Virus record (IMG/VR): IMGVR_UViG_3300046684_000080
Span: 1 to 42,541 of that record
Strand: one strand, 5' to 3'
Length of the DNA stretch: 42,541 bases
Source of the DNA: a virus
Numbering within the stretch: position 1 is the first letter of the stretch; each line of letters starts with the position of its first letter. The position numbers and the translations under genes are program-made. Below the pieces are notes generated by a model, which was not told the origin of the DNA, ran no database searches, and was given only the letters and a program-made list of their open reading frames with translations. Positions 594 through 36,776 of the stretch are shown piece after piece.

Positions 594-890
594 ATGACCT
601 TTGACGAATTCACTGTCCAGCTTGCTGATGTTTTGCGCGCGCAGCCGCCAGGCACGAGCGCAGAACTTACGGAAGACATCTCCGCCTACTGGAATGGGAG
701 CCGCGTGATCTACGCGTTCCTGTGCGAGCATGGATCCGGGCGGATCGAGGAGGAATTCGATCCAGAGGATTACATCTGGGCAGAATGGTCGCCCGATTTC
801 GTCCAGTGGCTCGACGATCCGAAATTCGGTGTGCGGCCGGAGATCCTGGACTGGCTGAAAGAGCCTGCCCCGCCCGCCGGCAATTCCTGA
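594..890 (+). CDS. Hypothetical acidic protein, 98 aa
   Basis: Not recognised. Acidic protein rich in Asp, Glu and Trp (for example DPEDYIWAEWSPDFVQWLDD), without signal peptide. GGAG lies 7 nt upstream of the ATG. The stop is 5 nt before the ATG of the ligase gene, so the two are probably co-transcribed and translationally linked. The position at the end of the phage late region and the opposite strand to the late operon fit an accessory (moron) pair. Confidence 0.7.
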   Translation: MTFDEFTVQLADVLRAQPPGTSAELTEDISAYWNGSRVIYAFLCEHGSGRIEEEFDPEDYIWAEWSPDFVQWLDDPKFGVRPEILDWLKEPAPPAGNS

Positions 891-895
891 CGATC

Positions 896-1567
896 ATGCT
901 GTCAGCGCCGCTTATCGAGGCCGCCGACTTGATGCTGGCGACGCTTCGCCCGCGTGTTTTCTCGGACAAGGCTTTTCTATACGAGCTCAAGTACGACGGC
1001 TATCGATGCCTGGTGCGAAAAACCGGAGCGAGCGTCGATCTGATTAGCCGAGCCGGCAATTTGCTGAATCCTTCCTTTCCGGACATTGTCGCAGCCGTCA
1101 CCGCAGTGCCTGGCGACTTTACGTTCGACGCGGAGTTGACGGTCGACGAAGCCAACGGGAGATCATCTTTCGAGTGGCTCAGACGGCGCGCTGTAACGAA
1201 GCTCCCGATGCGCGTGCGTGCGGCCGTTGCCCGGCACCCGGCGCGCCTGTACCTATTCGACGCACTGTCAGTCGGCGGTGAAGACCTGCGCGAGTTACCG
1301 CTTGTCGAGCGCAAGAACTACCTACGCGATGCGTTCGGGGACACAAATACCCTGATTTACGCAACCGGCATCGTAGGCGCTGGCGAATGGGTATTCGAGC
1401 AGGCGAAAGGCCTTGATCTGGAGGGTATGGTCGCCAAACGCATGTCGTCGCCGTACCGGAGCGGCAGATCCCCAGACTGGTTGAAAATTAAGAACCCGCG
1501 CTACAGCCGCCCGGCCGCGCTGGGTTGGGGCCGCGAGGAACCGACGGTGCAGGAAGCTGCCCCCTGA
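896..1567 (+). CDS. Minimal ATP-dependent DNA ligase (adenylation domain only)
   Basis: A 223-aa nucleotidyltransferase of the ATP-dependent DNA ligase type. Motif I is ELKYDGYR, with the Lys that would be adenylated. Motif III is FDAELTVD, IIIa is LYLFDALSV, IV is EGMVAKR and V is WLKIKNP. The sequence most resembles the ligase part of LigD-type proteins. Ligases of this class normally carry a C-terminal OB domain after motif V; here only about 20 residues follow, so the OB fold is missing. I chose ATG 896 because the open frame upstream overlaps the preceding gene and the fold starts here. The stop abuts the stop of the convergent Rz gene. It may seal nicks, or need a partner for DNA binding; activity is inferred. 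Confidence 0.88.
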   Translation: MLSAPLIEAADLMLATLRPRVFSDKAFLYELKYDGYRCLVRKTGASVDLISRAGNLLNPSFPDIVAAVTAVPGDFTFDAELTVDEANGRSSFEWLRRRAVTKLPMRVRAAVARHPARLYLFDALSVGGEDLRELPLVERKNYLRDAFGDTNTLIYATGIVGAGEWVFEQAKGLDLEGMVAKRMSSPYRSGRSPDWLKIKNPRYSRPAALGWGREEPTVQEAAP

Positions 1568-3096: not shown

Positions 3097-4569
3097 CTAT
3101 CGAGAAACGACTTTCAGCCGTGTTTCAGAAACGACGACGAAGCGTCGCGTCTCTGATGCCGTGTATGCCCCACGTGTTTCCGATCGAAAAAGCGACGAAC
3201 GCGTTTCAGAAGAAACGATCGCGACTCGATTTTCAGGAACGACGGCGATGCGCAACGGCGGTGCCGAGCGAGAGAATCTCGATGTCGCGAAGATCGTTCC
3301 TGTGACACCCGCCAGCACCCCTGACAACGCCACGCTCATACTCACCGCGCCAGCGAGATGACCGGACACGCCCGCCAGCTGGCCGGCAATGCCGCCGGTG
3401 ATCGGCAGGGTGATCGAGCCAGCGAGTGAACCAGTCACCCCCGCCAACGTGCCATATATGGCACCTGTCAGACCGGTGAGGGAGTTGCCGCTGAAGGCGC
3501 CGGTGAGATTCGCGAGCGTGCCGCTGATCGAGGCCGACAGTACCGGCGTGGCCGAGATCGCGCCCGACACCCCGCCGAGCGTGCCGCTGAATGCGCCCGG
3601 TATCGACTCGACGGCAGCGAGTGCCCCGCTCACCCCAGCGAGGCTTCCGCCGATCGCTGCGCCGAGTGTTTCCCCGGCTGTGATCGCGCCACTCGCGCCC
3701 GAGAGCGTCCCGCTGATCGCCGCGGCTAAAGTTTGCGCCGCCGAGATCGAGCCGGCGACACCCGCCAGCGTTCCGGTCAGCGCGCCCGCGACGAGCTCGG
3801 CGCCGATGATCGAGCCCGAGACGCCGCCCAGAGTGCCGCCGATCGCCGCCGACAGCGACTCAGCGCCCGCGAAGGCGCCGGTGACGCCGGCAAGCGTTCC
3901 CAAGAAAGAACCCGGCAGCGTTTCTGCACCCGAAAAGGCACCAGAAACGCCCGCCAGCGTGCCCGCGAGCGTGCCGGTCACAGCCGCCACTGATGTCGTG
4001 TACGCCGCCGCCTCAAGCCACGCCTGCCCCGCGCTGGCGAGCAGGCCGGTGATCGTGATTGCGAGCGTCAGCGTCTGCCCGGCAGAATTCGCCGAGTAGG
4101 TGATCGTCGTTTTCTGATAGGCCGGGTTGCCCGAGTTGCCTGTCGTGTTGAGCGTCAGGTCGGCGGCGCTGCCGTCCGACAGGTGCGCGACGATCCGGCC
4201 GGGCGCGCTGTACGTTCCCCACCATATGTCGAGCGTGCGGGTGCTCGTGTCGGCCGGCGCAGTGAAGGCGATGCCCTGCCCCGCTGCCGGCGTCGCCGGG
4301 CTGACGATGATGCCCTGCGTGACAGAGCCGCTCGCGGCAGGCGCGCCGTCCGACCATGCGATCGTGTAGCCGATGCCGCTGAAGCTGTCTTTCGTCAGCG
4401 TGCCGGTGCCAACCGTAGTCGGCAAGCCGAAGGCGGAGCCGCCCCCGCTCTTACGGTTCGGCGCGGTCCACGATTGCGGGAATTGAATCCAGTCCGTGCG
4501 GGCGGGCGAACTGAGATTGAATGTCTCCGTGCCCGCCTGGACGGCATTCGAGCCGGAAAGAGCGCCCAC
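3097..4569 (-). CDS. Repeat-rich virion protein with Gly-rich 21-aa repeats and SETR 9-aa repeats
   Basis: A 490-aa protein in three parts. Residues 1-200 are a beta-rich domain (contains DIWWGTYSAPGRIVAHL). Residues about 203-430 are some eleven copies of a 21-residue repeat, consensus GTLAGVSGAxxxAExLxxAxx, with two copies of 23. Residues 445-490 are four to five copies of a 9-residue repeat starting SETR or PENR. The start is GTG with AAGGGGG 5 nt upstream. Similar xxVPAENR-type tandem tails occur in phage proteins next to fibre-tail adaptors. A surface-exposed or fibre-associated structural role is likely but inferred; it could also be a displayed adhesin-like protein. Confidence 0.75.
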   Translation of the reverse strand: MGALSGSNAVQAGTETFNLSSPARTDWIQFPQSWTAPNRKSGGGSAFGLPTTVGTGTLTKDSFSGIGYTIAWSDGAPAASGSVTQGIIVSPATPAAGQGIAFTAPADTSTRTLDIWWGTYSAPGRIVAHLSDGSAADLTLNTTGNSGNPAYQKTTITYSANSAGQTLTLAITITGLLASAGQAWLEAAAYTTSVAAVTGTLAGTLAGVSGAFSGAETLPGSFLGTLAGVTGAFAGAESLSAAIGGTLGGVSGSIIGAELVAGALTGTLAGVAGSISAAQTLAAAISGTLSGASGAITAGETLGAAIGGSLAGVSGALAAVESIPGAFSGTLGGVSGAISATPVLSASISGTLANLTGAFSGNSLTGLTGAIYGTLAGVTGSLAGSITLPITGGIAGQLAGVSGHLAGAVSMSVALSGVLAGVTGTIFATSRFSRSAPPLRIAVVPENRVAIVSSETRSSLFRSETRGAYTASETRRFVVVSETRLKVVSR

Positions 4570-5041: not shown

Positions 5042-5659
5042 TCACGCAATTCCGAATGCTCGCTTCGCCGCGCCGTAGAGCGCGAGCCGTTGCGCAGCGC
5101 CGTTCGTGCCGCCGTTGATAACGCGAGTGATGCGATCGAACTGCCCAACGTCCGCATAGCCGTTCAGATAATGGTTCGCCCACCACCAGGCAGAAGCCAA
5201 CGCCGCGTCGGCCGGCTGTTCGAGCAACTCCGGATGCGCGATCAGATCAAGGTCGATGCCGATGCTCGCGAGCTGGTAATTCCGACGGCCGGTGATTTGG
5301 AGGCATGCGCGGCCGCGATACTTCCAACCGTCACCGCTCGCCTCATCGCCGTTCCCGTTCCGGTTCGCATATGCGCGATTCGCGATGCGCTCGGGCTGAC
5401 GCGCATACTTCGCAGCGTCGGCCTCGGTGAAGTGCGAAGGAAACGTCGACAGAAGCCCCGGCGCCCCATAGTTCAGGTTCTCGACCAGAGCCGTCAGCCC
5501 GGCGCTCTCATGCCCGATCTGAGCGAGGAACGCGGCCATGCGAAGCGGCGTGTTGATAGCAAATCGATCGCACGCGGCCTGAAGCGGCTCAATCCACTGC
5601 GCCGCGCGCAGCTGCGTCGCGCCGGTCGCAGCGGAGATGATGTTGGAAGTAAGATTCAT
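5042..5659 (-). CDS. Endolysin, glycoside hydrolase family 19 type
   Basis: A 205-aa soluble chitinase-class lysozyme that cleaves the glycan strands of peptidoglycan. Signature stretches are MAAFLAQIGHESAG with the likely general acid Glu51, a second Glu at about 60 (LVENLNYG), then GDGWKYRGRACLQITGRRNY and ASAWWWANHYLNGYAD, all typical of GH19 phage endolysins. There is no signal peptide, so export depends on a holin. The ATG at 5659 overlaps the TGA of the upstream membrane protein (ATGA). A frame extension of four codons is less likely. A terminator follows. Confidence 0.92.
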   Translation of the reverse strand: MNLTSNIISAATGATQLRAAQWIEPLQAACDRFAINTPLRMAAFLAQIGHESAGLTALVENLNYGAPGLLSTFPSHFTEADAAKYARQPERIANRAYANRNGNGDEASGDGWKYRGRACLQITGRRNYQLASIGIDLDLIAHPELLEQPADAALASAWWWANHYLNGYADVGQFDRITRVINGGTNGAAQRLALYGAAKRAFGIA

Positions 5660-5952
5660 AGCTCGGGCCACTTCCCGTTGCGAATCGCCATGAATGCGCC
5701 GATCGGAGCAAGGATGTAACTAGCCCACTTCGCCACCTTGCCGAGCACACCGAGGAAGCGAATCCCTCCCTGCATGACATCGAACATCTGCACGATGCCC
5801 TCCGTCGACGTAGCCACTTTCTGTGTGAGATCAGTATTCGTCTGGATCGCGAGATCCTGGCTGCTCAATCGTAAATTCAAAGCCTCGAATTGCTTGACAA
5901 CGCTCGCGCGGAACTCGTCTTCGGGCATGTCCATGATTTTGGAGGATTCCAT
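5656..5952 (-). CDS. Putative holin-like membrane protein, 98 aa
   Basis: A helical N-terminal part (MDMPEDEFRASVVKQFEAL, then polar residues suited to oligomerisation) is followed by one membrane segment near the C-terminus (about 69-90, GVLGKVAKWASYILAPIGAFMA) and a short tail. The same layout occurs in one-membrane-segment phage proteins next to GH19 endolysins. It is coupled to the endolysin by an ATGA overlap. It may be the holin, with the 2115-2321 protein as a second holin or antiholin; sequence alone does not decide. Confidence 0.65.
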   Translation of the reverse strand: MESSKIMDMPEDEFRASVVKQFEALNLRLSSQDLAIQTNTDLTQKVATSTEGIVQMFDVMQGGIRFLGVLGKVAKWASYILAPIGAFMAIRNGKWPEL

Positions 5953-5969
5953 TGGGCCCCGGAAATAGG

Positions 5970-5989
5970 AAAAGCCGCCCGGGGGCGGC
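5970..5989 (-). terminator. Intrinsic terminator upstream of the lysis pair
   Basis: Minus strand: GCCGCC-CCCG-GGCGGC followed by TTTT. It ends minus-strand transcription before the holin-like and endolysin genes and lies at the left edge of the moron insertion. Confidence 0.7.
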
Positions 5990-6040
5990 CGTTGGTCAAA
6001 TCGTTTCTTATGATTGACTTAATAGCGTCTAAACGAGGCT

Positions 6041-6049
6041 TGATATACT
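6041..6049 (+). promoter_or_regulatory. Extended -10 promoter of the glycosidase moron
   Basis: TGATATACT is an extended -10 element (TG-N-TATACT). No good -35 lies 16-18 nt upstream, as is common for extended -10 promoters; a TTGACT at 6014-6019 is too far. Predicted start is near 6056, about 25 nt before the ATG. It would allow expression in the lysogen, independently of the late operon on the other strand. Confidence 0.55.
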
Positions 6050-6079
6050 GCGACGCCCACACAATCGAAGCAGAGCCTA

Positions 6080-7591
6080 ATGACATATCGCGCGATCGGA
6101 CTATTTCTATGCATCGTCCCGCTGATGATCGGCCAGGCATCGGCGAAGACATCTGAAACTGACTTCAGCTTGGCGGCTTCGACGAAACTGTCGGCCCCTG
6201 TCCCACTCACCGTCGAAAGCGTGATGCCGAACCCCGTCCTATCAAAAGGCGGCTCCGGGCAATGGGATGGCGTCGATCTGCTCAACCCGTCCGTGATCAA
6301 GTTCAACGGGAAGCTGTTCAACTACTATTCAGGCTACAACGGCAAGGTCTGGCGGACTGGTGTCGCGACCTCTAAAGACGGCGTAATCTGGGACAAATAT
6401 CAGGGCAATCCCGTTCTTCAGCCGTCGGCAAAGGACTGGGACGTTTCCTATATATCTGCCAATGGCGCAGCGATCGTCTGGAAAGGCAAGGTTCTCTACT
6501 TTTACCAAGGACGCGATAAAGGCGGCGTCACCAACATAGGTCTAGCTACCTCTGCAGACGGCTTCCAATTTACGAAGATGCGTACGCCAGTCCTATCTGC
6601 CGGCAGCGCTGGTCGGTGGGACAGCGCCGCAGTCGGAGATCCGTATGTGGTCGAAAAGGGCGGCTATCTTTACCTGTACTACTTGGGGCAGGATGCGTTA
6701 GCCATGCAGCGCCTCGGGGTCGCTCGGTCGTCTGACGGCGTGAATTGGCAGACTTCTTCAGCAAATCCGATCCTAGACGTTGGAGCGTTCGGCACATTTG
6801 ACGAGAACGGCCTCGGAGAACCTAGCGTCGCGTTTCAGCCTCCGTATTTCTACATGCTGTACACCGGCCGCAGCAACACAGAAAGACGCAATCTAGGATA
6901 CGCAGTATCGACAGACGGCATCCACTGGAAAAAGATGTCAATCAATGGGTTGCTGCAGCCTAAACAAATGAGCGCTTGGAGTTCTCAGGTAGTCTGCGAT
7001 TCGACGCTCCTTTCTAACGGCAACGGCAAATGGTCCGTATGGTTTGGCGGAGGAAACAAGCCAGAGCCAGCACAAAATCTAAACGGCCAGGTCGGCATGA
7101 TGACCATCAACCTATCTCAGGGCCGTGATCCATCATCCTTTGACGCCAATGCCGAATGGTCAAAGACCAAAATTCACTCGACCGACGTTTTGAACGGATC
7201 GTTCCCGATTGAAGGAGAGCCCGGCAAGCGGCATGCGTGGATCGGTCCTTCGGCGGCCATTGCGTTAGTGCTCGGCGAATCGCAACAAAACAAGGATCTC
7301 AGCATATCGGGGTGGGTTCCTGCTGCCCTGATCTCGAGCAAGACGAAGAACAAGGTTCCGATGCGCGTTGACGTTCTAGTGAACGGAAAGACGGTTACAT
7401 CGCGTACGTTCGCCGGTGACGACCTGTTCGCTTTAACGGCGCCGTGGGCCGCTGTTGAAAACGCATTGCACGGAAGCGACATCGCCAACGTTGAAATTCA
7501 TTCGAGCAAGTTCATGATCCCTGCGGACACAGATGGAAGTCCAGACCGGCGCGCGCTGTCCATGCAAATTTGGACCATCAAGTTTCAATGA
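6080..7591 (+). CDS. Secreted five-bladed beta-propeller glycosidase-like protein (moron)
   Basis: A 503-aa protein with a signal peptide (about residues 1-22, cleavage after ASA). Residues about 45-310 are a beta-propeller with repeated blades of the form GVATSKDGVIWDKYQGNPVL, GLATSADGF, GVARSSDGVNW and GYAVSTDGIHW, as in the GH32/GH43/GH130-type superfamily. Residues about 375-503 form a beta-rich domain ending with IPADTDGSPDRRALSMQIW, which resembles a C-terminal domain found in surface-polysaccharide glycosyltransferases. Periplasmic or outer-surface action on a host glycan is the best inference; catalytic residues were not assigned. The gene runs opposite to the tail operon, has its own promoter, and is visibly richer in A/T than its neighbours. 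Confidence 0.75.
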   Translation: MTYRAIGLFLCIVPLMIGQASAKTSETDFSLAASTKLSAPVPLTVESVMPNPVLSKGGSGQWDGVDLLNPSVIKFNGKLFNYYSGYNGKVWRTGVATSKDGVIWDKYQGNPVLQPSAKDWDVSYISANGAAIVWKGKVLYFYQGRDKGGVTNIGLATSADGFQFTKMRTPVLSAGSAGRWDSAAVGDPYVVEKGGYLYLYYLGQDALAMQRLGVARSSDGVNWQTSSANPILDVGAFGTFDENGLGEPSVAFQPPYFYMLYTGRSNTERRNLGYAVSTDGIHWKKMSINGLLQPKQMSAWSSQVVCDSTLLSNGNGKWSVWFGGGNKPEPAQNLNGQVGMMTINLSQGRDPSSFDANAEWSKTKIHSTDVLNGSFPIEGEPGKRHAWIGPSAAIALVLGESQQNKDLSISGWVPAALISSKTKNKVPMRVDVLVNGKTVTSRTFAGDDLFALTAPWAAVENALHGSDIANVEIHSSKFMIPADTDGSPDRRALSMQIWTIKFQ

Positions 7592-7635
7592 AGCGGGACG
7601 CGTAAAATGTTCTCGCAAACAATCATGAGGCATAC

Positions 7636-7848
7636 ATGGTGAATTCAACCAACGAGCAGATGTACCGTGCGCATTTTCCGGACGGCAGCACGCGGCTTCT
7701 CACTCAGGCAGAAGTCGACGCGCTGCGCATTAGTCCGTACGGCAATCAGGCGCTAATCGAACCAATTCCTCGACTAGATCAGGCCCAGGCGATCAATTTC
7801 ACCGCGTCGACCGACTCTGCTGCAGCGACGCGTCCGACTAGCGCCTGA
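7636..7848 (+). CDS. Small hypothetical protein, 70 aa, downstream of the glycosidase
   Basis: Not recognised. TGAGG at 7626-7630 is a good ribosome binding site 5 nt before the ATG. The sequence (MYRAHFPDGSTRLLTQAEVDALR) looks like a real small domain. The last 70 nt overlap the 3' end of the convergent tail fibre assembly gene, so the C-terminal residues may be an overprinted addition. It is probably co-transcribed with the glycosidase. Confidence 0.55.
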   Translation: MVNSTNEQMYRAHFPDGSTRLLTQAEVDALRISPYGNQALIEPIPRLDQAQAINFTASTDSAAATRPTSA

Positions 7849-8303
7849 TTCTTCGACATCGCCGCAAGCACCGCAACCTTTGCGTCTTTGCCGACCTGCT
7901 GAATCTGCGCGGCGGTGTGCATGCGGAACGCCCAAACACCATCAGGGTCAGCGCACCAGAACGGCGTAGCCCAACCGGCCGCGCCGTCGCTTAACAGCGA
8001 ATCGATCACCGACGACGCGAGGTTTTGCTGGTCGGTGTCTTTCGCCGGATAGGTGTAGCCGGTCGCGAGCGCGTCGGACGTGAATCCCGCATAGATCGAG
8101 GCTTTGCACGCGGCCGACAGTTCGGCGATTTTCGCGGCGCGCGCGCCGGCGAGCGTTGATGCCGGATTAGCGAAAGCGAGGTATCGCGGGTCCGATTCGT
8201 CAATCTGCGCTTGGTTCGGGTACGCTTCTGCGTCTTGTGGCGAGGCAAAATACGCTATTACTTCTTGCTCGGACGCATCCGAGAACTGCACATTAATGGT
8301 CAT
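7779..8303 (-). CDS. Tail fibre assembly protein with DUF4376-like domain
   Basis: A 174-aa protein coded just after the tail fibre gene, the usual place of a fibre chaperone. The C-terminal half (from about residue 56, AAKIAELSAACKASIYAGF, then YPAKDTDQQNLASSV) matches the DUF4376 pattern seen in Tfa-like proteins. It is expected to help fold or attach the fibre. The 3' end overlaps the plus-strand 70-aa gene by 70 nt. Confidence 0.82.
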   Translation of the reverse strand: MTINVQFSDASEQEVIAYFASPQDAEAYPNQAQIDESDPRYLAFANPASTLAGARAAKIAELSAACKASIYAGFTSDALATGYTYPAKDTDQQNLASSVIDSLLSDGAAGWATPFWCADPDGVWAFRMHTAAQIQQVGKDAKVAVLAAMSKNQALVGRVAAAESVDAVKLIAWA

Positions 8304-8315
8304 TATTTTTCTGCC

Positions 8316-9329
8316 CTAGAACGAATAGCCGGTCGTGTAAATGCTGAGTTGCGGCGAGGTCGCTGAGGTAGCGTTGAAGCTGTACCAGATCGATTGCGGA
8401 GTAACTAGCGGGATGCTCCCCATCCAACCAACCACCTGCTGGATCGCGGAATTACCCTGAGCCTGCGCGTATTGCTGACCGATCAACGAGGAGTTTGCTG
8501 CGACAGACGCGCCGAGTGAACTTGCTGCGGTGCCCGACTGCTGCGCATTGACACCAATGTTGGCAGCCTTCGCGTTGAGCGGCACGCCGGCTGCGATTGA
8601 AAGCGTCGTCCCGGTCGTGATCGTCGTTGTCGTAAGAACCGTGATGAGCGGCGTGAAGAATTGACGATCAAGCTGGAATCCAACGGTAAACTGCTTTGAC
8701 GCGTTCGTCGGCCACACACCGATCAGGGCGGATGCCGCATAGCCAGCCGGCATGTTGGCGCCGCCATAGACGTTCGGTTGCGCCGCCGACGTCGCGTCTT
8801 TTGCCAGAATGCTTGCTGTCGCGGTCGTCGAGTTGTAGATCGCATACAGCGCGACGTACCCGCTCGTCGGGGCAGTGCCGGTGTCCATCCCGCCAGCGCC
8901 GGTCGTTGCCAGGTTGATCGCTTGGCTGAAGCTGGCGACTTTGAATGTCTGCCCGCCAAGAGCCGTTTCAACAATGATCTCGTCGGCTGTAAATGTTGCA
9001 GTAGCGGATGCCGTCGACACAGACATCTTCGCGTTGCGCACCGTCCCGACAACAGCGTTCGAGACCGATTTCACAGCCGCTAAAAGGTTGGCCAAGAGAG
9101 TCGCCGTGGTCCCATCATCTACTGAGTTGGCGCCAGTCTGGTTTGCAATAAACTGCGCCAGCACCGCCGCCATAATGCTCGACTGGCGCCACGTCTTGTT
9201 GAGGGCAGCCGACTGCGCAATACCAGAAGAGTAGCCGTTGGCAATCGCCGACAGGGCGGCATATGCAGACTGCGAAAGCACGTTCGCAGAGCCACCAACC
9301 GCAAACGGGAGGAAATCATTCGTTGCCAT
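8316..9329 (-). CDS. Tail fibre protein
   Basis: A 337-aa Ala/Ser/Thr/Gly-rich protein. Its N-terminus (MATNDFLPFAVGGSANVLSQ) and following region (GIAQSAALNKTWRQSSIMAAVLAQFIA, about residues 35-61) are the conserved virion-attachment part of many Burkholderia and Pseudomonas tail fibres. The rest is low-complexity beta-rich shaft and tip, ending SIYTTGYSF. It should mediate receptor recognition. It lies between DUF2612 and the assembly protein, as in other contractile-tailed phages. Confidence 0.85.
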   Translation of the reverse strand: MATNDFLPFAVGGSANVLSQSAYAALSAIANGYSSGIAQSAALNKTWRQSSIMAAVLAQFIANQTGANSVDDGTTATLLANLLAAVKSVSNAVVGTVRNAKMSVSTASATATFTADEIIVETALGGQTFKVASFSQAINLATTGAGGMDTGTAPTSGYVALYAIYNSTTATASILAKDATSAAQPNVYGGANMPAGYAASALIGVWPTNASKQFTVGFQLDRQFFTPLITVLTTTTITTGTTLSIAAGVPLNAKAANIGVNAQQSGTAASSLGASVAANSSLIGQQYAQAQGNSAIQQVVGWMGSIPLVTPQSIWYSFNATSATSPQLSIYTTGYSF

Positions 9330-35301: not shown

Positions 35302-35685
35302 TCACCTCTTGTTGGCGATCATTCTCTCTAATATGGTCAACTCGACCCGGTCAGCCCACCACTGACTAACGGCCCGGTTGCCTACAACACGCTCGAACTC
35401 GTCGACCTTTTCGGCCGGCAAGTCCGCCCGCTTCTTGCCCTTCGTATCGAACGCCTGCGGATTCACGAAGTTCGTGACGTGCGGCGCGTACAGTCCGCAC
35501 AGCTCCGCGAGTGTTCTTTTCGTCATGCCTTTGACGGCCCGGTTCTCCCAGGCAAGCCAAACGGCATCGCGAAAAGTCGCACACTTGGCGATCTCAGCGT
35601 CAGGCAGGAACCGCGGAGCATCTGCAGAGCCTTCCGACTTCAGGTTGTGTGCAGCGGCCTTGTGCGGCGTTTGTTGTGTCTGCAT
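35302..35685 (-). CDS. CII-like regulator
   Basis: A 127-aa protein in the slot of cII, second gene after cro. The central HTH (AVKGMTKRTLAELCGLYAPH, then VTNFVNPQAFDTKGKKRADL) resembles phage CII-like activators and other small HTH regulators. AAGGAAG precedes ATG 35685. It may activate the repressor or integrase promoters; this is inferred from position. Confidence 0.65.
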   Translation of the reverse strand: MQTQQTPHKAAAHNLKSEGSADAPRFLPDAEIAKCATFRDAVWLAWENRAVKGMTKRTLAELCGLYAPHVTNFVNPQAFDTKGKKRADLPAEKVDEFERVVGNRAVSQWWADRVELTILERMIANKR

Positions 35686-35754
35686 CTTCCTTTCCAGTTA
35701 GTGAAAAACAATCGTATTACGACTTGGATTACTGCATGGAGCCGGGGGAAATTG

Positions 35755-35831
35755 AAGGGGTCGACCGACCCCTTAACCCCATGAAACTCACCCAGAAGAA
35801 AATCCGCCAGATGATGCGTTTCAGAAGAGCA
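35755..35831 (-). promoter_or_regulatory. Post-cro leader with boxA-like element and hairpin (nutR/tR1-like)
   Basis: Just downstream of cro on the minus strand lies TGCTCTTCTGAA (35820-35831), which matches the first seven bases of boxA (TGCTCTTTAACA). It is followed by a 9-bp inverted repeat AAGGGGTCG-N2-CGACCCCTT at 35755-35774. The order cro, boxA-like, hairpin, cII-like is that of lambda nutR-tR1. The hairpin has no T tract, so a rho-dependent or pausing function is more likely. Short matches could be chance. Confidence 0.4.
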
Positions 35832-35837
35832 GCAAAA

Positions 35838-36041
35838 TTAAGCAGCAACCTTGTCCCGGGATCGCATGACCTTCCGATGAAGAGCGACGAGCTTCCGCCC
35901 CTTTTCGTAACCGAAGGACTTTTGCTTGGTTTGCCTCAGGACATGGTTGACGGCCGACTGACTGGCGCCGATTTGGACGGCGATTTCAGTCTGGGTCATA
36001 CCGGCATCGAGGCAGTCGCGGATGAGTTGGGTCCAGTTCAT
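35838..36041 (-). CDS. cro: Cro-like repressor
   Basis: A 67-aa HTH protein (MTQTEIAVQIGASQSAVNHV at about residues 15-34) divergent from the CI-like gene. Its promoter's -10 ends 8 nt before ATG 36041, so the transcript should be leaderless or nearly so. The C-terminus is basic. It should bind the same operators as CI and favour lytic growth. Confidence 0.85.
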   Translation of the reverse strand: MNWTQLIRDCLDAGMTQTEIAVQIGASQSAVNHVLRQTKQKSFGYEKGRKLVALHRKVMRSRDKVAA

Positions 36042-36048
36042 GAGTCCA

Positions 36049-36076
36049 ATATTAGCACACTAATATGCACTGTCAA
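36049..36076 (-). promoter_or_regulatory. Leftward lytic promoter (PR-like) with operator
   Basis: Minus strand: -35 TTGACA (36071-36076, perfect), 16-nt spacer, -10 TAATAT (36049-36054). The operator ATATTAG-CACA-CTAATAT (36049-36066, perfect 7-bp arms) covers the -10. Because the palindrome is symmetrical, it also offers a TAATAT -10 (36061-36066) for weak plus-strand transcription of the CI gene, with a poor -35 (TTCATG, 36037-36042). Confidence 0.8.
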
Positions 36077-36102
36077 TAGTGATCTACTTGAGAAAACTAA
36101 TA
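36074..36102. promoter_or_regulatory. Degenerate second and third repressor operators
   Basis: CAATAG-TGAT-CTACTT (36074-36089) matches the operator TATTAG-N4-CTAATA at 8 of 12 positions, 24 bp from the first operator. CTTGAG-AAAA-CTAATA (36087-36102) has one perfect half. Weak copies near a strong one are typical of switch regions. Confidence 0.45.
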
Positions 36103-36104
36103 AC

Positions 36105-36776
36105 ATGCGTCTCATGAGCATAGGTCACCGAATCCGTCAATTAAGGGAAAAGGCCGGACTTTCCCAGTCAGATCTCGCAATTAAGGCGGGCGTGTCGCAA
36201 GGTACGATCAGCCAACTCGAGAAGAACCCCAATCAGAAGACAAAGCACCTGGTCGCAATCGCTCGCGCATTGGATGCGTCGGTCGACTGGCTCGAGAAAG
36301 GGACCGGTCCGATCGAACGCCAAAGAAAGACGGCGATCACTCCGGATGACTCGGACGAGTTCATTGCCATCAGAAAAGTCGTGTTCAGAATAAGCGCAGG
36401 TGTAGCAGGATTTGCCGTCGATTTCCTAGACAACGGCGACGGCGCCCCACTGTTTTTCCAAAAGACGTGGTTCGCAACCCGTGGGTACGACCCGGACGAT
36501 CTCTATGCGATCAAGGTGCGCGGCGCCAGCATGGAGCCGTCGCTCGCGGACGGCGACACGGTTGTAGTCAACACGGAAGACAAAACTCCAATGGACGGCG
36601 AAGTGTTCGCCGCCAACTATGACGGCGAGCTGGTCGTGAAGCGCCTGGTGCGGGACGCCGGCGAATGGTGGCTCTCATCCGACAATCGCGATGAGCGTCG
36701 ATACCCGCGCAAGCGATGCGACGAGCACACCTTCATCCTTGGCCGGATCGTCCACAAGCAAAGCGAACGGATCTAA
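36105..36776 (+). CDS. cI: CI-like repressor with S24 autoprotease
   Basis: A 223-aa repressor. The N-terminal HTH is QSDLAIKAGVSQGTIS (about 21-36). The C-terminal S24 peptidase has Ser142 in RGASMEPSLADGD and Lys179 in ELVVKRL, with a probable cleavage site Ala98-Gly99 (ISAGVAG). RecA-stimulated self-cleavage would induce the prophage on DNA damage. ATG 36105 is chosen; ATG 36114 (MSIGHRIRQL) is also good, and neither has a strong binding site. It is divergent from cro and followed by a terminator. Confidence 0.92.
   Translation: MRLMSIGHRIRQLREKAGLSQSDLAIKAGVSQGTISQLEKNPNQKTKHLVAIARALDASVDWLEKGTGPIERQRKTAITPDDSDEFIAIRKVVFRISAGVAGFAVDFLDNGDGAPLFFQKTWFATRGYDPDDLYAIKVRGASMEPSLADGDTVVVNTEDKTPMDGEVFAANYDGELVVKRLVRDAGEWWLSSDNRDERRYPRKRCDEHTFILGRIVHKQSERI

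Follow-up and report, generated by a model that had tools for sequence, protein, structure and literature searches.

The window analysed here is a 42,541-nucleotide stretch of viral DNA, and we propose that its ORF at 6080-7591 is probably a lysogenic-conversion (moron) gene altering the surface glycan of the phage's own host. On the basis of family matches and a predicted model, we confidently assign the 503-aa product to the five-bladed beta-propellers of the GH43/GH62/GH32/GH68/GH117/GH130/GH137 superfamily. The strongest evidence for a surface-glycan role is the genomic context: the corresponding slot in related phages mostly holds surface-glycan genes, which makes conversion of the host's own glycan likely. 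It counts against this reading that the gene is connected with glycan through its neighbourhood and not through a common pathway.

As an IMG/VR virus record, the window represents a contractile-tailed phage with genes for portal, protease, capsid, sheath, tape measure, baseplate and fibre, together with a DnaB-type helicase, a replication initiator and a RecT/exonuclease. The presence of a CI-like repressor at 35649-36776 suggests a temperate phage, and we regard it as probably a temperate phage of soil; none of the window proteins scanned was identified as an integrase. By the baseplate J protein, the Burkholderia phages BgManors32 and Magia are the nearest relatives in culture (~59 % identity), so that a Burkholderia-type host is probable. 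Elsewhere in the window, the gene at 722-1567 (+) adjoins an Rz-like gene and has an ATP-dependent DNA ligase domain (Pfam DNA_ligase_A_M, 4.9e-27); a longer LigD-like gene is found near the same place in locus L015. The lysis-side operon also contains a 490-aa protein at 3097-4569 (-) that is kept in relatives (43-54 %) and matches nothing in Pfam or PHROG.

DNA similarity to close relatives is ~75-83 % on either side of the ORF and vanishes between ~5660 and ~8700, a region that we define as the swap slot. The slot and the elements in and around it are as follows.

5660-8700, no strand: swap slot, with DNA similarity lost at both edges
8316-9329, minus strand: tail fibre gene flanking the slot
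7779-8303, minus strand: tail-fibre-assembly-like gene (DUF4376) at the slot edge
5042-5671, minus strand: GH19 endolysin gene flanking the slot
5656-5952, minus strand: small protein, holin-like by position only
5973-5990, minus strand: terminator-like hairpin with a T-rich tail, between the slot cassette and the lysis genes (consensus match only)
6041-6049, plus strand: extended -10-like element TGATATACT, ~31 bp upstream of the ATG (consensus match only)

To count what occupies the slot, relatives were fetched by baseplate protein and by fibre N-terminus, yielding 33 non-redundant loci that have a common fibre N-terminus and at least 2 kb after the fibre. A named surface-glycan gene is found in about 19 of the 33 loci, or 22 with weak calls included; these counts are approximate since genes were called as the longest ORFs and assigned by hand on the basis of family matches. 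The named genes comprise 12 AT3, several SGNH/GDSL, one GT2, one FkbM methyltransferase, one GH43 and the window gene, while the three weak calls are 2OG-oxygenase-like, GT/methyltransferase-like and Wzy_C-like below the cut-off. The slot also takes genes of other or unclear kinds, with 11 of the 33 loci having no named glycan gene. All 19 matches to the AT3 model in slot loci lie downstream of the fibre. The glycan genes run opposite to the tail operon in 16 cases out of 22, and their G+C is on average 4.5 points below that of the adjacent tail genes (Wilcoxon p = 3e-4).

In the closest relatives (~90 % in the baseplate protein), the slot itself is taken by AT3 or SGNH genes. An acyltransferase-3 on the opposite strand occupies it in L007 and L012, one GDSL lipoprotein-like hydrolase in L011, two GDSL proteins in L022, a PhyH protein in L021 and, in L016, a GH43-like lipoprotein with a second lipoprotein-like gene. 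The second, secreted lipoprotein-like gene directly overlaps the GH43-like one, and the pair (L016 12153-14635, minus strand) is a possible two-enzyme cassette. Another group of related slot proteins (L061 10926-11639, L064 10425-11198, L074 11821-12774 and L072 12311-13420) has signal peptides, is outer-membrane beta-barrel-like (L072 weakly matching OMP_b-brl) and sits beside SGNH or AT3 genes.

The window gene has the characteristics of a moron: a position and strand of its own outside the logic of the operon, A/T-richer sequence and variability among relatives. As originally predicted, it is on the strand opposite to the tail operon, and the gene map places it between the tail-fibre-assembly gene and the lysis genes, opposite to both tail and lysis genes. 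The predicted A/T-richness was likewise borne out: the G+C is 0.546 for the ORF and 0.611 for the window, which places the ORF among the lowest 2 % of equally long stretches. The frame is intact over 503 codons with gene-like position-specific GC (0.54/0.46/0.64), and an independent second assembly of this virus (L005; 99.99 % over 15.6 kb) contains practically the same ORF. No 9-mer is common to the two edges of the ORF that would indicate flanking repeats. Downstream on the same strand, a 70-aa ORF at 7636-7848 (+) overlaps the tfa gene antisense; its relatives are absent from all fetched loci except the same virus.

The extended -10 element of the original prediction is present at 6041-6049, but a -35/-10 scan found no promoter there, and the whole window contains 4 such matches compared to 4.5 expected. 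Since these matches occur at the chance rate, only the position of the element is suggestive. A motif search in the upstream regions of slot genes gave 7/8 matches in 3 of 19 (shuffle p = 0.006), too weak a basis for a promoter motif common to slot genes, and we did not build on it. The hairpin at 5973-5990 (-) falls below the shuffle mean for the region.

The features of the gene and its product are listed below.

6080-7591, plus strand: secreted five-bladed beta-propeller, glycosidase-superfamily protein (family matches, model, fold search)
6080-6145, plus strand: Sec-type signal peptide, residues 1-22 (sequence and hydropathy; cleavage after ASA judged by eye)
6275-7114, plus strand: propeller of five blades, with strands at residues 66-344 (model, residue spacing)
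7115-7588, plus strand: C-terminal region, residues ~346-503, beta-rich in a low-confidence model

The signal peptide claimed from the sequence alone holds up: the N-terminus, MTYRAIGLFLCIVPLMIGQASA before a K, has an A-S-A cleavage pattern, and residues 6-17 are the most hydrophobic 12-mer of the protein. It contains no lipobox. A polysaccharide-type, surface-glycan C-terminal domain had also been claimed but found no support: searches of Pfam, the PDB, GenBank phages and plasmids gave no match to residues ~345-503, and this part is modelled badly, the single-sequence fold being unreliable.

Structure prediction and a fold search, proposed earlier as a check, clarified the remainder. With an alignment of 23 sequences as input, AlphaFold gave a confident core of five three-strand blades, with ten-residue blocks mostly above 90 pLDDT over residues 61-280. 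The best Foldseek matches are BT_0996, a protein described as a glycoside hydrolase, and enzymes of GH117 and GH130; against the GH130 phosphorylases 7fip_B and 9fj8_A the TM is 0.77-0.79 by target length. A profile search of the PDB agrees. Pfam GH130 (1.8e-12; 47.3 bits for a cut-off of 26) and GH32N (7e-11) both match above cut-off and Pfam GH43 does not match; the NCBIfam models for beta-1,2-mannobiose phosphorylase and beta-1,2-mannosidase match far below their cut-offs (60 vs 450 bits). Membership can therefore be claimed at the superfamily level only. The propeller of the original prediction stands, while its Asp-box-like character does not: the protein has no true Asp box (S.D.G..[WFY], i.e. 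SxDxGxxW) and no BNR/sialidase Pfam match, and we rejected a sialidase identity. Instead, it has four S.DG..[WF] repeats, at residues 98, 158, 217 and 277, as in GH43/117/130/32 relatives.

Five evenly spaced residues, N69, N128, D187, E247 and D307, lie at the start of the first strand of each blade and form a ring around the pocket. In GH43, GH32 and GH117 the blade-I Asp is the catalytic base or nucleophile. From sequence alignments at ~25-33 % identity, on which this residue analysis rests rather than on model coordinates, the blade-I column is Asp in 19 of the 19 homologues having a residue there and Asn69 in the window protein. D187 aligns with the blade-III Asp of the GH43/GH117/GH32 type. 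In blade IV the usual Glu (two before Pro) is Gly, and E247 is one residue off the Glu column. GH130 enzymes carry Asn naturally at blade I ('FNAAVI' in 7fip; also 9fj8) and use the Asp of 'EDPR' in blade II; this acid motif is absent from the window protein, whose blade II reads SANGAAI, although E247 would coincide with the GH130 acid if the register is shifted by two blades, as one local alignment has it. Three carboxylates are present and no canonical set is complete, which makes catalysis plausible and not established; it may be non-canonical or lost. Because Asn69 replaces the blade-I Asp, catalysis is uncertain, and so is that part of the original prediction of a secreted propeller glycosidase moron acting on host glycan, which otherwise gains strong independent support from the slot comparison.

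The replacement of the blade-I Asp also makes a non-hydrolytic glycan-binding protein a real, if rather improbable, possibility. Such a catalytically dead or lectin-like propeller would mask receptors by binding surface glycan without cleaving it, as the missing GH130 acid motif and the shifted blade-IV Glu would allow. The D62N mutant of the related GH32 endo-levanase BT1760 is titled 'Inactive' (PDB 7znr), and we take D62 to be the equivalent of position 69. Conversely, D187, E247 and D307 are still in place around the pocket, and Asn at blade I is natural in GH130 enzymes. The main rival is a catabolic role, in which the gene would be a nutritional auxiliary gene whose secreted glycosidase makes poly- or oligosaccharides of plants or soil usable for the lysogen. 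GH43, GH130 and GH117 are mostly catabolic enzymes, as are the best structural matches here, and glycoside hydrolase genes have been discussed for soil viruses. The closest homologues (25-33 % identity) are from bacterial genomes, the search covering Verrucomicrobia-type and Bacteroidota centres. We nevertheless consider this role unlikely: the slot neighbours in relatives are surface-modifying and not catabolic, the ORF has no transporter or sugar-utilisation gene beside it, and the canonical catalytic Asp is missing.

The position next to the fibre genes would also fit a virion-associated depolymerase or tail accessory protein, and propeller enzymes are known on tails (tail-spike and sialidase-domain proteins). 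The signal peptide, the opposite strand, the lower G+C and the integral-membrane acyltransferases that take its place in close relatives make this very improbable. We give least credence to the view that the gene is neutral or decaying cargo, acquired not long ago from a bacterial genome and without a role under selection. It would explain the odd composition and why only one virus in IMG/VR carries the protein, but hardly the intact, gene-like frame or a function class the same as that of the slot replacements. GenBank phages contain no relative of the window protein and none of the GH43-like L040 protein described below; a profile scan of viral contigs was dropped, the alignment being too divergent. 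In favour of conversion, a homologue on a Devosia plasmid (L041 4860-5774), annotated 'glucosyl hydrolase', is inside an O-antigen-type cluster with a GNAT acetyltransferase, a DegT aminotransferase, an O-antigen translocase and a glycosyltransferase.

Under the favoured reading of lysogenic conversion, the gene would be transcribed in the lysogen independently of the tail operon, and the protein, free of a lipobox, would be exported to the periplasm. There it may cut or bind a sugar in the host's own O-antigen, capsule or exopolysaccharide. Whereas neighbouring phages attach acyl groups or take them off, this protein would remove sugar units or occupy them, and phages that depend on the receptor so altered would superinfect less.

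Most known conversion genes either attach a group (acetyl, glucosyl) or stop polymerisation. The glycosidase-type window protein together with the independent GH43-like and SGNH occupants suggests a parallel strategy in which surface sugars are removed or masked. We tentatively hypothesize that exported glycan-degrading or -capping propellers of temperate phages are a distinct, repeatedly acquired class of surface conversion, the lysogen trimming the polysaccharide of its own receptor in the periplasm, in parallel with decorating transferases, and that receptor-binding and receptor-altering genes travel together through one fibre-proximal slot. The fibre-adjacent slot makes it easy to look for receptor-altering genes and to predict the glycan on which a phage depends. 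A search of the available literature found no paper on phage-encoded periplasmic glycosidases as conversion factors.

Among enzymes, the window protein is like GH130 (7fip, 9fj8) in its five-bladed propeller, its Pfam GH130 match and its blade-I Asn, and differs by the missing EDPR general-acid motif and an extra C-terminal region. GH130 includes beta-1,2-mannobiose and oligomannan phosphorylases (7fip, 9fj8) and beta-1,2-mannosidases of the 3qc2/5a7v kind. With GH117 (the anhydro-galactosidases 4u6d, 4ak5 and 3r4y) and the GH43/GH32 clans it has the SxDGxxW repeats in common; 4u6d is its best PDB sequence match and the DPY in blade III aligns, whereas the blade-I Asp is Asn69 and the His-Glu pair of GH117 is not seen.

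Among phages, Burkholderia phage Magia (MT701587) has in the same slot, from tail fibre to holin/endolysin, an annotated membrane acyltransferase and, on the opposite strand, an SGNH 'outer membrane-associated lipid esterase'. Both Magia and the window have a secreted hydrolase-type protein on the opposite strand, of an esterase fold in Magia and a propeller in the window. L016 (IMGVR 3300048854_000074) and L040 (3300030498_000015) have, like the window, a signal-peptide or lipoprotein-like protein of a propeller family right after the fibre. These two GH43-like proteins are ~43 % identical to each other and can scarcely be aligned with the window protein (pairwise E 2e-4); unlike it they keep the blade-I Asp and blade-IV Glu, and in L040 the gene lies on the strand of the tail genes.

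In phage Sf6, acetylation by the AT3 protein Oac blocks superinfection by hindering the Sf6 endorhamnosidase (PMC9558356). Phage O-antigen conversion genes (AT3 of the Sf6 Oac type, gtr) have, like the window gene, a moron position in a temperate phage. AT3 conversion genes are moreover the replacements of the window gene in close relatives, and an effect on the receptor glycan is proposed for both. In contrast to these integral-membrane transferases, the window protein is predicted to be a soluble exported propeller that would remove or bind a sugar instead of adding a group.
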